From a delta proteobacterium MLS_D (GTDB lineage Bacteria > Desulfobacterota > Syntrophia > Syntrophales > UBA2210), in the NCBI GenBank assembly GCA_002030015.1, contig LQBH01000024.1:77501-128162 (forward strand): a stretch of DNA of 50,662 bases, given 5' to 3'. Every line of letters starts with the position of its first letter. The first letter of the stretch is position 1. Below, one piece after another: positions 21,436-38,115 of the stretch. The translations under genes were made by a program, and so were the position numbers. The notes beneath the pieces were generated by a model, which saw nothing but the letters and a program-made list of their open reading frames with translations, was not told where the DNA came from and ran no database searches.

Positions 21436-21890
21436 TATCCCGTCCACCCTTCGACAGGGCTCAGGGTGAACGGAGATTTTTATTATGCTCAGGACGAACG
21501 GGTCTGTAAAAATCCGTTCGCACCCGGAACCGTTCGTACCGAGCCTGTCGAAGTACGGACGGTAACCAGAAATCCGTTCGTACTGAGCCTGTCGAAGTAC
21601 GAATGGTGATGCCTTTCCCTTTTCCCGGTCATCTTTCGACGGTGCTCAGGACGAACGGGTGATTCAAAAATCCGTTCGTACTCGCGTGCCCGACATGGTA
21701 GAGCCCTTCGACAAGCTCAGGAGAGCCCTGTCGAAGTACAGACGGTAACCAAAAATCCGTTCGTACTGAGCCTGTCGAAGTACGAATGGTGATGCCTTTC
21801 CCTTTTACCGGTCATCCTTCGACAGGCTCAGGATGATCGGTAAAATCCATTGTGCTCAGGACGAACGGGGAAATCTATTGCGCTCAGGAT
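21436..21890. repeat. Cluster of 'cttcgacaggctcagg' palindromic repeats
   Basis: This non-coding stretch holds about ten imperfect copies, in both orientations, of an element with the core 'cttcgacaggctcagg' flanked by 'cgttcgt' and 'gaacgg' ends. Pairs of ends can fold as 'cgttcgtac...gtacgaacg' hairpins. One segment, 'aaaaatccgttcgtactgag' with its continuation, occurs twice about 180 bases apart (21565 and 21745). The same family appears at 30300, 32800, 37540 and 38500. It resembles REP-type dispersed repeats. Confidence 0.85.
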
Positions 21891-32556: not shown

Positions 32557-32765
32557 GTGAGGGGTTATGGGCTGGAGGCGATGGGCTCCTTTTTCCGGGT
32601 CCTCTTCCCTGAAGGGAGATATGATTCCATAACAGTTCTTTCCCCTCCCCTGGAGGGAGGGATGATTCCGCAACATTTCCTTCACCTCCCCTGGAAGGAG
32701 GAATGATCTCATAACAATTCTTTCCCCTCCCCTGGAGGGAGGGGATTAAGGGGAGGGGGATGAAG
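32533..32765. repeat. Composite repeat downstream of hflX, inverted copy of 30655-30840
   Basis: Read on the minus strand, this shows the same modules as the upstream copy: 'ctccccttaatcccctccct', then three rather than two 'ggggaggggaaaga...ggaatcat' units, then 'gaggacccggaaaaaggagc' and 'cc' followed by 'tcgcc' and 'taaccc' words. It begins inside the hflX 3' end, so the last codons and stop of hflX derive from repeat sequence. Confidence 0.85.
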
Positions 32766-32799: not shown

Positions 32800-33085
32800 C
32801 GAATGGGTTCCAATAAACCGTTCATGCTAAGCCCCGTCGAAGGATGAACGGGGTCAAGCGCACTGTTGCCGTCCGTACTTCGACAGGGCTCAGTACGAAC
32901 GGATTCTTACAGACTCGGTTATCCCCGCGTGCCCGCGATTTTCCTTCCCCGTTCGTCCTGAGCCTGTCGAAGGATGAACGCTCTGAACGGATTCCCGTAT
33001 TCCCGTTCGTCCTCGCGTGCCCGCAAGGGTAGAGCCCCTGTCGAAGGATGAACGGCTCCGTGCGAACGCGCAGGGTGAACGGGGA
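32800..33085. repeat. Palindromic repeat cluster between hflX and the small RNA candidate
   Basis: Several 'cttcgacagggctcagtacg'-like elements occur in both orientations, together with 'tcgcgtgcccgcgattttcc' (also at about 30325) and 'tcctcgcgtgcccgcaaggg' (also at about 30382). It is the same family as at 21436 and 37540. No gene was seen. Confidence 0.8.
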
Positions 33086-33110: not shown

Positions 33111-33140
33111 TTGACTTTTGCGAAATAATGCTGGTAGGGT
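33111..33140 (+). promoter_or_regulatory. Sigma70-type promoter for the structured RNA candidate
   Basis: TTGACT (33111-33116) and TAGGGT (33135-33140) are 18 bases apart, immediately after the repeat cluster ends. Transcription would start near 33147. Confidence 0.6.
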
Positions 33141-33145
33141 ACGCC

Positions 33146-33339
33146 GATCTCTTGTTACCGAATAGGACGCTGCGACTGATGATATTGATTGACGACAGGA
33201 AAGCGGGTATCGATTTTTTGCGCGTAGTATGCCTCGCTCTTCCCGGGCCCACATAGGGGGGCCTCGTCGTCGAACAGCAGCACCACGTAACGGAACAGCG
33301 TAAATAAGATGAGGCCTCGGGCGGCGCCCGGGGCTTTTT
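33146..33339 (+). ncRNA. Structured small RNA candidate, 6S-like shape
   Basis: A stretch of about 190 bases without a convincing reading frame lies between a promoter and a terminator. By hand folding, an outer stem (33150-33156 with 33303-33309) and an inner one (33167-33172 with 33296-33301) close a large central bubble (18 bases on the left, 24 on the right). An apical stem (33191-33199 with 33262-33271) carries two hairpins (33202-33210 with 33229-33238; 33242-33250 with 33256-33261). A closing stem, wide bubble and apical arm is the general layout of 6S RNA, but no sequence signature confirms this. A leader regulating the oxidoreductase operon is the main alternative. Confidence 0.45.
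33311..33339 (+). terminator. Rho-independent terminator of the structured RNA candidate
   Basis: A 9-base-pair stem (GCCTCGGGC at 33314-33322 with GCCCGGGGC at 33326-33334, one G-U pair) with a 3-base loop is followed by TTTTT. The next gene begins 50 bases later, so this also works as a possible attenuator. Confidence 0.8.
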
Positions 33340-33389: not shown

Positions 33390-33977
33390 ATGCATGAAAT
33401 ACTCTGGCACGGCCGGGGCGGACAGGGCGTCGTCCTGGCATCGGAGGTACTCGCCGAGGCCGCGTATCTGCAGGGTTACAGGGGCGTCACCTCCGCTCCC
33501 ACCTTCGGCCCGGAGCGCCGCGGAGCGCCGCTGACGGCCTCCACCAGGATCGACGACGAACCGATACGGACCTTCTCGCAGATCGCCCTTGCGGATATTG
33601 TGATTGTGCTCGATGAATCGCTCTTTGGTTCCGTCGATATCGGGGCGGGGCTTCGGAACGGGGGCGTCCTGATCGTCAACTCGGCGCGACCCCCGGAGAG
33701 TTTTCGCCTTCCCGACAAGCCCGCCGCTCGCACCGCTTCGGTGGACGCCGCCGCCATCGCGCGGGAATTCCGTCTCACCGTGGGAGGCGCGCCCGTGGTA
33801 AACACGCCGCTTCTGGGATCGCTGGCCCGCCTCTGGGACAGGATCAGCCTCGCCGGCATCGAGCGCGGCCTTGCCTTCAAAATGCCGCCCGCGTCTGCCT
33901 ACAACAATTACCAGGCCGTCCGGCGCGCCTTCGAAATGACTGTCGTGGGAGACACTCGTCATGAACAGACAGGATGA
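33390..33977 (+). CDS. 2-oxoacid:ferredoxin oxidoreductase, gamma subunit
   Basis: This 195-residue protein is the gamma subunit of a CoA-dependent 2-oxoacid:ferredoxin oxidoreductase. It starts 'MHEILWHGRGGQGVVLASEVLAEAAYLQGY' with the family 'GRGGQG' loop, followed by 'PTFGPERRGAP' and 'NTPLLGSLARL'. The ATG at 33390 is chosen over an upstream frame extension because the family begins here and GGAG precedes it. The four genes in gamma, delta, alpha, beta order overlap or nearly touch, as in pyruvate (Por) or branched-chain (Vor) enzymes. The substrate cannot be assigned from sequence. Confidence 0.9.
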   Translation: MHEILWHGRGGQGVVLASEVLAEAAYLQGYRGVTSAPTFGPERRGAPLTASTRIDDEPIRTFSQIALADIVIVLDESLFGSVDIGAGLRNGGVLIVNSARPPESFRLPDKPAARTASVDAAAIAREFRLTVGGAPVVNTPLLGSLARLWDRISLAGIERGLAFKMPPASAYNNYQAVRRAFEMTVVGDTRHEQTG

Positions 33978-34254
33978 CAATATATCGGGCGTCTGCACGC
34001 CCGCCGTGGGAGAAGCGGGAAAAACGGGCGACTGGACGGAGATGAAGCCCGTCATTGATCCCGCGAAGTGCACGCCCGCCGTCAAGGGAAAACCGTCCTG
34101 TTTTCTCTGCTGGCTTTACTGCCCGGAAGGTGTGGTCTCCATGACCATCCCCGTCACCATCGACCTGGACTACTGCAAGGGCTGCGGCATCTGCGCCGAG
34201 GAGTGTCCCCCCAACGCGATCACCATGGTCGGAAAGGAGCGCGGCCGTGAGTGA
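33961..34254 (+). CDS. 2-oxoacid:ferredoxin oxidoreductase, delta (ferredoxin) subunit
   Basis: This is a 97-residue polyferredoxin-like subunit expected to carry two [4Fe-4S] clusters between the catalytic site and external ferredoxin. The second motif is classical ('CKGCGICAEECPP'). The first is unusual: 'CTPAVKGKPSCFLCWLYCPEG' spaces its first two cysteines by nine residues where two are usual, although eight cysteines in the cluster motifs are still present. It overlaps the gamma gene by 17 bases and the alpha gene by 8, so the subunits are translationally coupled. GGGAG precedes the ATG. Confidence 0.9.
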   Translation: MNRQDDNISGVCTPAVGEAGKTGDWTEMKPVIDPAKCTPAVKGKPSCFLCWLYCPEGVVSMTIPVTIDLDYCKGCGICAEECPPNAITMVGKERGRE

Positions 34255-35455
34255 CGTGCGCATCATCACGGGCAACGAAGCGGCCGCTCTCGCCGTGACT
34301 CTCTGCGAACCCCAGGTGGTGGCGGCCTATCCCATCACGCCTCAAACAAAGATCTCCGAACTGCTCTCGGAGTACGTGGAACGCGGAACCCTGAAGGCGG
34401 AGTACGTGCGCGTTGAAAGCGAACACTCCGCCCTGTCGGTGCTGATCGCGGCCTCGACGACGGGCGTCCGAACCTTCACGGCCACCAGCTCGAACGGCCT
34501 GCTCTACATGCACGAGCAGCTTCACTGGGCAGCGGGGTCTCGCCTTCCCATCGTCATGTGCTGCGTCAACCGCGGCGTGGCGGCCCCCTGGTCGATCTTC
34601 AACGACCAGCAGGACTCCATGTCCCAGCGCGACACGGGGTGGATACAGCTCTACTGCCGGAACAACCAGGAGATTATCGACACGGTGATTCAAGCCTACC
34701 GGATCGCGGAAGAAGTGTATGTGCCCGTCATGGTCTGCTACGACGGGTTCATTCTTTCCCATACCATGATGCCCGTGGAAATCCCCGACGCCGCCGAAGT
34801 GCGGCGCTATCTGCCTCCCTACAAACCCCACACATTCCTCGAGCCGGAACGGCCACGGACGATCAATCCCGTTTTTTTCCCCTGGCGCCGGCAGAACGCG
34901 GACGGTGTCCTCTGTGACGGCTACATGGAAATGCGGCGAAAGCTGCAGACGGGTCTCGAAAAGGCCCGGGATGTCATCGCCGCGGCGAGCAGCGATTACG
35001 CCGAACGTTTCGGCCGGGATCACGGCGGTCTTTTCTGGACGCACCGGGTGGAAGACGCCGATATAATTCTGACCGGCATGGGCTCCATCGCCGCCGAGGC
35101 GACCCTGGCGGCCGACCTGCTGCGGAATGAGGGCGTCAGGGCGGGCGTCGTCGGTATCCGTTCGTACCGGCCCTTCCCGCCGGGACTGCCGGCGGTTCTG
35201 AGAAACGCCCGCCTGATCGTGGTCTTCGAAAAATGCTTCAGTTACGGCTACGAGGGAGGCGTGACGTCCGACCTGAAGGCCTCCCTGTACGGAACGGGCG
35301 TGGACGCGCCGGTAATTGACGTCATCGCCGGACTGGGAGGTCGGGATGTAAAAACCGCCGACCTGCTGGGAGCGGTCCGGGAAGCCGTGAAATCACTGGA
35401 ATCGGGCGACAGGGCGTGCCGCACCGTATGGCTCAACTGCCGGGAGGAAGAATAA
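34247..35455 (+). CDS. 2-oxoacid:ferredoxin oxidoreductase, alpha subunit
   Basis: The 402-residue alpha subunit carries the pyrimidine-binding transketolase-like domain: 'ITGNEAAALAVTLCEPQVVAAYPITPQTKISELLSEY' at the N terminus, 'VESEHSALSVLIAASTTGVRTFTATSSNGLLYMHEQLHW', and domain II with 'ADIILTGMGSIAAEATLAADLL'. 'YPITPQT' and the 'ESEHSA' segment are the usual cofactor and substrate regions. Together with the beta subunit it oxidatively decarboxylates a 2-oxoacid to an acyl-CoA and reduced ferredoxin. Start ATG overlaps the delta gene by 8 bases. The protein resembles PorA, but substrate identity is open. Confidence 0.92.
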   Translation: MSDVRIITGNEAAALAVTLCEPQVVAAYPITPQTKISELLSEYVERGTLKAEYVRVESEHSALSVLIAASTTGVRTFTATSSNGLLYMHEQLHWAAGSRLPIVMCCVNRGVAAPWSIFNDQQDSMSQRDTGWIQLYCRNNQEIIDTVIQAYRIAEEVYVPVMVCYDGFILSHTMMPVEIPDAAEVRRYLPPYKPHTFLEPERPRTINPVFFPWRRQNADGVLCDGYMEMRRKLQTGLEKARDVIAAASSDYAERFGRDHGGLFWTHRVEDADIILTGMGSIAAEATLAADLLRNEGVRAGVVGIRSYRPFPPGLPAVLRNARLIVVFEKCFSYGYEGGVTSDLKASLYGTGVDAPVIDVIAGLGGRDVKTADLLGAVREAVKSLESGDRACRTVWLNCREEE

Positions 35456-35457
35456 CC

Positions 35458-36357
35458 ATGCAGGAGAACCTTTTCAGGATCAACGACAAGGAATACATCC
35501 TGCCGGGCAGCCGGGCCTGCCAGGGATGCGGCCTGTCCATCGCCTATCGTTTCATTCTCAAGGCGCTCAGGGAAAATACCATCGTGGCCATTCCGCCGAG
35601 TTGCCTCTGTGTCCTGCACGGCCTGTATCCCACCACATCAGTGATCGTTCCCGCGATTAACAACTCCTTCGCCTCAACCGCCGCCTCCGCCTCGGGAATC
35701 GTGGCCGCCCTCAAGGCCCAGAATCGTCCCGATATCAACGTGCTGGCTCTGTGCGGCGACGGCGGGACCTACGACATCGGCATCCAGTCTTTGTCGGGAG
35801 CGGCGGAGAGGAACACGGATTTCATTTTCGCCTGCTACGACAACGAGGCGTACATGAACACGGGAACTCAGCGGTCCGGGGCGACGCCGGCGGGCGCCGT
35901 CACAACTACCACGCCGGTGCTGACCAAGCAGGGCCACAAGAAAGACTTCGTCAAAATCATGGAGGCCCACAACCTGCCGTACATCGCCACGGTATCGCCG
36001 GCCTATCCCATCGACCTGTACGACAAGTTCGTCAAGGCCGGCAGGATCAAGGGAACCCGCTACATACAGATCGACACGCCCTGTCCACCGGGCTGGGGCT
36101 ATCCCGCAAAGGACACGATAAAAATCGGAAAACTCGCCGTGGAAACGGGCCTGTTTCCCCTGCTGGAAATTGAGGACGGCAAGCTGCGTTTCACCGGCCG
36201 AAGCAAGACCCTCGCGGAAAAGGGGAAACGGACGCCCCTGGTACATTACGTGGAGCGGCAGGCCAGGTTCCGAAAAATGAGCATGGAACAGCTCAACCAG
36301 CTCCAGGCCTGGGTGGACAGGCGCTGGAACGAGTTTCTCAGACGCGCCGGCGAATGA
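35458..36357 (+). CDS. 2-oxoacid:ferredoxin oxidoreductase, beta subunit (TPP-binding)
   Basis: This 299-residue subunit binds thiamine diphosphate and the proximal cluster. It starts at ATG 35458, with GGAGGAAG upstream and 2 bases after the alpha gene. It shows 'GSRACQGCGLSIAYRFILKAL' with the cluster CxxC, 'PPSCLCVLHGL' and the TPP motif 'LCGDGGTYDIGIQSLSGAAERNTDFIFACYDNEAYMNTG'. A further cysteine lies in 'IDTPCPPGWGYP'. The family length and motif order are normal. It is the last gene of the operon; the HDOD gene begins 137 bases downstream. Confidence 0.93.
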   Translation: MQENLFRINDKEYILPGSRACQGCGLSIAYRFILKALRENTIVAIPPSCLCVLHGLYPTTSVIVPAINNSFASTAASASGIVAALKAQNRPDINVLALCGDGGTYDIGIQSLSGAAERNTDFIFACYDNEAYMNTGTQRSGATPAGAVTTTTPVLTKQGHKKDFVKIMEAHNLPYIATVSPAYPIDLYDKFVKAGRIKGTRYIQIDTPCPPGWGYPAKDTIKIGKLAVETGLFPLLEIEDGKLRFTGRSKTLAEKGKRTPLVHYVERQARFRKMSMEQLNQLQAWVDRRWNEFLRRAGE

Positions 36358-37539: not shown

Positions 37540-38115
37540 CACAACCGTTCGCACCAGGAACCACTCGCACTCGCGTACCCTCCAGGAAACCGTTCGTACT
37601 CGTGTGCCCGTCAGGAATCCGTTCGTACTGAGCCCTTCGACGGAGCTCAGGACATGCCTGTCGAAGTGCGGACGGTGGACCTGCAGCGTCAGCCCCGTTC
37701 ATCCTTCGACAGGCTCAGGACGAACGGGGGAGGTAAATCGCGTGCCTGACAGGGCTCAGGACGAACGGGAAATTTCATCGCGCTCAGGGTGAATGGGGGA
37801 TTCCATAAACCGTTCGCACCCGAAACCGTTCGTACTCGTGTGCCCGTCAGGAATCCGTTCGTACTGAGCCCTTCGACGGAGCTCAGGACATGCTTGTCGA
37901 AGTGCGGACGGTGGACCTGCAGCGTCAGCCCCGTTCATCCTTCGACGGTGCTCAGGACGAACGGGGGAGGTAAATCGCGTGCCTGACGGTGCTCAGGATG
38001 AACGGGATATTTCATCACGCTCAGGGTGAATGGGGGATTCCATAAACCGTTCGCACCCGAAACCGTTCGTACTCGTATGCCCGTCAGGGTAGAGCCTGTC
38101 GAAGTACGAACGGCA
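37540..38115. repeat. Tandem array of about 236-base units made of palindromic repeats
   Basis: Two nearly identical units of about 236 bases (starting at about 37591 and 37827) and a truncated third (from about 38064) stand head to tail. Each contains 'cgttcgtactcgtgtgcccg', 'cttcgacggagctcaggaca', 'gtgcggacggtggacctgca' and ends in 'gggggattccataaaccgtt'. Copies differ at few positions. The array fills the 627-base gap between the HDOD and GIY-YIG genes. The short open frames within it repeat with the unit and are not convincing genes. Confidence 0.9.

Follow-up and report, generated by a model that had tools for sequence, protein, structure and literature searches.

The region at 33111-33339 of the window, which is the whole stretch of 50,662 nucleotides that was analysed, is very probably a transcription attenuator of the trp/leu type, in which translation of a leader peptide would control the porGDAB operon located downstream (Table 1). 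Leader-peptide attenuation is a classical mechanism. The computed part of this reading comprises the conserved ORF, promoter and terminator, the mutually exclusive pairings, their dependence on the ribosome position, the conservation across the order and the homology to leuA leaders. What we infer beyond this is that the leader is actually translated, that ribosomes stall at its leucine codons and in which direction the operon is regulated. A wrong 6S RNA call is thereby replaced by a mechanistic and testable one. Furthermore, the attenuator family, which is absent from Rfam 15, would join leuA and a ferredoxin-dependent oxidoreductase operon as one leucine regulon in the Syntrophales, an order of mostly uncultured syntrophs.

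Table 1. Leader elements and genes of the downstream operon, given in window positions.
Feature	Position	Strand	Details
Promoter	33111-33140	+	-35 TTGACT 33111-33116, 18-base spacer, -10 TAGGGT 33135-33140; from the sequence, kept in G002, G003 and G004
Weak Shine-Dalgarno-like AGGA	33164-33167	+	11 bases before the leader ATG, a spacing beyond the usual
Leader peptide ORF	33179-33256	+	MILIDDRKAGIDFLRVVCLALPGPT*; stop TAG 33254-33256; same end, in frame, in four congeneric species
Predicted control codons CTC GCT CTT (Leu-Ala-Leu), conserved	33233-33241	+	L-x-L kept in all 26 leader peptides that were aligned
Hairpin 1:2 (anti-antiterminator)	33245-33264	+	GGGCCC 33245-33250 with GGGCCT 33259-33264; -10.8 kcal/mol
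Antiterminator 2:3	33258-33318	+	GGGGCCTCGTC 33258-33268 with GATGAGGCCTC 33308-33318, 11 pairs; fold with the ribosome on CTT
Intrinsic terminator 3:4	33313-33339	+	GGCCTCGGGCG-GC-GCCCGGGGCT-UUUU; stem-loop 33313-33335 plus U tract; -18.9 kcal/mol
porG	33390-33977	+	gamma subunit, 2-oxoacid:ferredoxin oxidoreductase, predicted first regulated gene; TIGR02175, 158 bits (cut-off 81)
porD	33961-34254	+	delta (ferredoxin) subunit; TIGR02179, 83 bits (cut-off 60)
porA	34247-35455	+	alpha subunit; best model NF040682, pyruvate synthase PorA, 428 bits (cut-off 550); PDB 9bt4
porB	35461-36357	+	beta subunit; best model NF008818, 358 bits (cut-off 405)

Transcription unit and leader reading frame

An earlier note on this DNA had described a promoter, a non-coding stretch and an intrinsic terminator, and had read them as a stand-alone 6S RNA. 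The outer elements of this description were confirmed. The promoter TTGACT-N18-TAGGGT is kept with its surroundings in three further congeneric species, and its extended pattern occurs once in the window with zero occurrences expected; the terminator stem is retained despite base changes in relatives, for example as GGCCGCGAA..TTCGCGGCC in G002. Both had been missed by an automatic scan because its consensus was strict. Transcription would start at about 33146-33148.

The unit is not non-coding, however, since it contains a 25-codon ORF whose frame and endpoint are shared by all four species of the genus. This ORF is open from ATG in each of the four, encoding, besides the window peptide, MTTTDGRDAGIHSGRPVCLALPGPT in G004 and MATDSGKGRAPFERLVSLALPRPT in G002. 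The window peptide ends in ...VCLALPGPT*, and the last nine residues are conserved in the genus as V[CS]L[AV]LP[GR]PT*, while the N-terminal part varies. At the nucleotide level, the promoter, a 45-base core GTATGCCTCGCTCTTCCCGGGCCCACATAGGGGGGCCTCGTCGTCG, which includes the end of the leader ORF, and the terminator are kept in the four species, and the remainder varies in sequence and length. Substitutions give little coding signal in close pairs and a mean z of 1.6 in diverged pairs, which are not independent of one another. An overlapping ORF in another frame, starting at 33229 (MPRSSRAHIGGPRRRTAAPRNGTA), was rejected because it is broken in G002 by a 5-G instead of a 6-G run; it is present in G003 and lies within a longer ORF in G004.

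The hand-folded closing stems, central bubble and apical stem with two hairpins did not withstand comparison. The whole-unit minimum free energy has a z of -1.87 against shuffles in the window; the values for two relatives are -1.40 and -0.68. Moreover, the whole-unit folds predicted for the different species are unlike one another. Since the folds differ and are barely better than those of shuffled sequences, the 6S layout drawn by hand does not represent a conserved structure; the conserved part consists of the 45-base core and the terminator, not of the bubble. In a covariance-model search of the locus with the 6S model, no match was obtained even at E<=10, whereas the genome carries a clear 6S RNA (RF00013) at G000:C4:16271-16468, which scores 103.3 bits (gathering score 46.4). 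The leader resembles 6S RNA (SsrS) in having its own promoter and terminator and a length of about 190 nt, and these properties, together with the hand folding, had suggested an RNA that sequesters RNA polymerase via a promoter-like bubble. With a true 6S gene elsewhere, no signal at the locus, a position fixed before porG and a conserved ORF inside, this reading is refuted and retains virtually no probability. The alternative raised in the same note, in which the unit is an attenuating leader for the oxidoreductase operon, gains strong support from the order-wide comparison described below.

Alternative pairings and ribosome position

The leader stop codon sits in the loop of hairpin 1:2, between its two arms, and in the window the antiterminator is mutually exclusive with both this hairpin and the terminator. 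According to the proposed mechanism, RNA polymerase would initiate at the promoter and a ribosome would translate the 25-codon leader. When leucyl-tRNA is scarce, the ribosome would halt on CTC-GCT-CTT and cover arm 1 (GGGCCC), so that arm 2 (GGGGCCTCGTC) could pair with arm 3 (GATGAGGCCTC), the terminator would be blocked and transcription would read through into the operon. When leucine is plentiful, the ribosome would continue to the UAG, which lies between arms 1 and 2, and would cover arm 2, whereupon the 3:4 terminator would form and transcription would end after about 190 bases. Without translation, the formation of 1:2 and 3:4 would likewise lead to termination. In explicit folds of the window leader, the terminator forms both with the ribosome at the stop and without a ribosome.

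The dependence on the ribosome position was computed with a fold scan, in which each codon in turn was placed in the A-site, 13 nt ahead were covered and the leader downstream of the ribosome was folded. The energy gained by segment 3, the 5' half of the terminator, through upstream pairing was used as readout; the 13-nt footprint and the minimum free energies are model choices. In all 34 scanned leaders, a simulated ribosome on the Leu run favours the antiterminator and one at the stop favours the terminator. The segment-3 gain was larger in the Leu zone in each of them, typically 5 to 20 kcal/mol, than at the stop, where it is nearly gone (0 to about -4), and the antitermination zone coincides with the Leu control codons. 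In the window, the gain is -11 kcal/mol upstream, -17 with Ala, Leu, Pro or Gly of LALPG in the A-site (33236-33247), where the largest antiterminator gain is predicted, and -2 at Thr and stop. Compared to dinucleotide-shuffled versions of the same segment, the 34 leaders have a mean z of -3.2, ranging from -1.1 to -5.2. For the window leader, a gain of -16.2 kcal/mol contrasts with -5.0 +/- 2.4 for the shuffles (z -4.7), none of the 300 being as low.

The antiterminator itself exists in several versions. In explicit folds, the window genus forms GGGGCCUCGUC:GAUGAGGCCUC, most of the order forms GCCCGU.GUUUUUAGGA:UCCUAAAGGC.AUGGGU, and other leaders form CCCGUGGCC:GGCCAUGGG; once the ribosome is placed at the stop, the folds of these leaders contain the terminator. 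The antiterminator cells are paired in 91.2% and 92.5% of cases in two subtypes, compared to 29-60% in slid controls. Strict covariation is modest because the antiterminator varies little within each subtype. In the window genus, it has been rebuilt with a different helix. Many relatives carry hairpins of differing sequence directly behind the Leu run, with the self-complementary arms GAUGGG/CCCAUC, GCUGGG/CCCAGC, GCAGGG/CCCUGC, GCCGGA/UCCGGC and UGACGCGG/CCGCGUCA, although the stability of hairpin 1:2 is not unusual in every relative.

An order-wide leader family and its probable signal

A leader ORF and a terminator precede porG in 38 of the 40 Syntrophales orthologues with enough upstream sequence, the order label being a reading of the relatives' names (Syntrophaceae, Syntrophus and related MAGs). 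This wider family was first hidden by the motif search, in which the exact core motif CCCACATAGGGGG matched in the window genus only, and was uncovered via synteny with porG. Its layout consists of a promoter, an ORF of 24-42 codons, in many members a hairpin after the Leu run, and the terminator. Typically, the peptide ends in ...LLCLALLLGxxPxPVVFRK* and is followed by a terminator of the form GGCCATGGG..CCATGGCC-U(n). Leucine accounts for 23.9% of the residues in the leader frame compared to 8.5% and 3.7% in the other frames, all six Leu codons are used, and the Leu runs vary in their exact sequence among relatives. Outside the order, no leader-like sequence was found in a sample of 297 genomes of the phylum, the two matches both belonging to the same order, nor in the inspected porG relatives of other groups. 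A BLAST match in G040 (L006) was dismissed as chance similarity.

The two orthologues lacking the leader are L047 (upstream of 947) and L052 (upstream of 423), in which the promoter is kept and the leader is missing or truncated, reflecting either a loss of attenuation or assembly faults. At the ends of two contigs of one genome (G054:C79 and G054:C48, loci L156 and L157), two near-identical por leaders are found, possibly representing two operon copies or strain variants.

Within this family, the window genus is set apart by its reduced leader. Its peptides, 24-25 codons long, contain 2-4 Leu and are thus poorer in Leu codons than those of the relatives, with only two of these codons conserved, and the distance from stop to terminator is 51-56 nt compared to 21-26 nt in most of the family. 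Given the weak Shine-Dalgarno sequence and the minimal L-A-L codons, the leucine sensitivity of this leader may be low or altered. The rebuilt leader peptide and antiterminator suggest that a genus can replace both and yet keep the switch.

Further leaders point to the signal. In the same genome, leuA at 94,973 is preceded by a leader at G000:C1 ~94,758-94,871 (L161 4259-4372), with the peptide VIDNGRTILLSLLSLSGLGLALTGVHIVPVSPALPTE* and the terminator GGCCATGGGC..GCCCATGGCC-U(n). Across the order, the leaders of leuA (loci L172-L197) have Leu-run peptides and a terminator GGCCATGGG..CCCATGGCC-U(n) as in the por type. Most of them are found by a DNA profile of the por antiterminator, with E-values down to 3e-12 compared to at least 0.095 for shuffled controls; those of the window genus are matched weakly or not at all. 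Both leader types encode a Leu-run peptide, with a PPPVVFR-type end in several species, but the leuA leader controls isopropylmalate synthase, and the por leader of the window genus differs in its shortened peptide and rebuilt antiterminator. Judged by these sequences, the por leader is homologous to the leuA leaders of the order, and leucine is therefore the most likely signal. A Val-rich peptide VRNRSVVAVLAEVVEVLVVVPSGTAARPL* with GTG start, followed by a terminator, precedes ilvB (G000:C2 ~98,209-98,298; L169 2710-2799), and an Ile-rich peptide MTNRDFSTIIIIGGIIRGTQPCAAW* with a terminator precedes cimA, a citramalate-synthase-like gene (G000:C1 ~92,908-92,985; L161 2409-2486). They are probable valine and isoleucine attenuators, respectively. 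The fold scan gave a ribosome-dependent switch in the leuA, ilvB and cimA leaders, weakest for leuA. Based on the leuA homology and these Val- and Ile-rich leaders, the por leader probably senses charged leucyl-tRNA.

The same attenuator could also operate with a ribosome arrested by its nascent peptide upon sensing a metabolite, as in TnaC, and not by uncharged tRNA-Leu. The conserved last nine residues, the prolines near the stop and the variable N-terminal part in the window genus would fit such an arrest. However, the predicted antiterminating positions lie on the Leu run upstream of the stop, a ribosome at the stop favours termination, the Leu runs of the relatives differ in exact sequence, and the leuA, ilvB and cimA leaders encode the cognate amino acid, which makes nascent-peptide arrest unlikely. 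A stand-alone sRNA acting in trans from its own promoter and terminator is very unlikely. Termination would release a discrete RNA of about 190 nt, and in some bacteria attenuator RNAs can work in trans, such as the trp leader RNA of Sinorhizobium, but the synteny with porG across the order, the readthrough geometry and the same design before leuA, ilvB and cimA speak against such a role.

Known attenuators and the target operon

The proposed attenuator shares several properties with the enterobacterial leu, trp and ilv attenuators (Rfam Leu_leader and Trp_leader), namely a short ORF with control codons, hairpin 1:2, antiterminator 2:3, terminator 3:4 and a stop codon near arms 1 and 2. Correspondingly, a short, predicted ORF is conserved upstream of the operon at 38 loci, the control codons lie just upstream of arm 1 (Leu 24%, L-x-L invariant), and, by computation, the terminator and antiterminator are exclusive and switched by the ribosome position. 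It differs from the enterobacterial systems in its target, a ferredoxin-dependent 2-oxoacid oxidoreductase operon, and in its short Leu run, with L-A-L alone conserved in the window genus. A search against Rfam 15, including Leu_leader, T-box and riboswitches, gave no match at the gathering cutoff in the window and none at E<=0.05 in 20 related loci. This also argues against a metabolite-binding riboswitch or a protein-dependent attenuator, either of which would have the same terminator/antiterminator architecture. As the upstream part is variable in length and sequence, with just the ORF, hairpin and terminator kept, these are highly improbable.

A leucine-rich attenuator peptide controlling branched-chain amino acid synthesis has been described in Staphylococcus aureus (PMC5794164). 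As far as the accessible part of that report goes, the peptide resembles the por leader in its leucine content and in the control of branched-chain amino acid genes in S. aureus, but it belongs to another phylum and acts on other target genes. A literature search, largely outside subscription papers, revealed neither an attenuator before a ferredoxin oxidoreductase operon nor leader-peptide attenuation in Syntrophus. The target operon, the leader family and the lineage thus appear to be undescribed in this context.

The substrate of the oxidoreductase is ambiguous from its sequence. The NCBIfam models are at odds, with the alpha subunit pointing to pyruvate (352 bits with the 2-ketoisovalerate model) and the beta subunit pointing to 2-ketoisovalerate, as NF008818 describes a 3-methyl-2-oxobutanoate (2-ketoisovalerate) dehydrogenase beta subunit and the PorB model reached 344 bits (cut-off 405). 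All of these scores are below the equivalog cutoffs. A second porGDAB-type cluster at G000:C1:206476-209018 (L170), beside fumarate hydratase, is closer to the pyruvate synthase models, and inspection of its upstream region revealed no leader. An enzyme of the 2-ketoisovalerate type acting in branched-chain synthesis would be compatible with leucine control, and so would a pyruvate synthase that feeds this synthesis. Tentatively, and with more doubt than confidence, porGDAB may encode a leucine or branched-chain biosynthetic enzyme of the 2-ketoisovalerate type that works reductively and carboxylates isobutyryl-, 2-methylbutyryl- or isovaleryl-CoA in the Syntrophales. If so, forming branched 2-oxoacids by carboxylation would be an alternative route to leucine and valine beside the ilv and leu genes. 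By naming its amino acid, the RNA would predict a role in branched-chain amino acid supply for an oxidoreductase with a sequence-ambiguous substrate.

Repeats were observed as well. Between hflX and the leader, repeated CCCTCCCCTGGAGGGAGGGATGATTCCGCAACA-type units occupy 32605-32760 of the window. A palindromic repeat GTTCGTCCTGAGCCTGTCGAAGGATGAAC is dispersed in the window at 32951-32979, 37697-37725 and 21810-21838, with two exact copies and one with 3 mismatches against zero expected, and variants of it are also found upstream of porG in G003 and G004.
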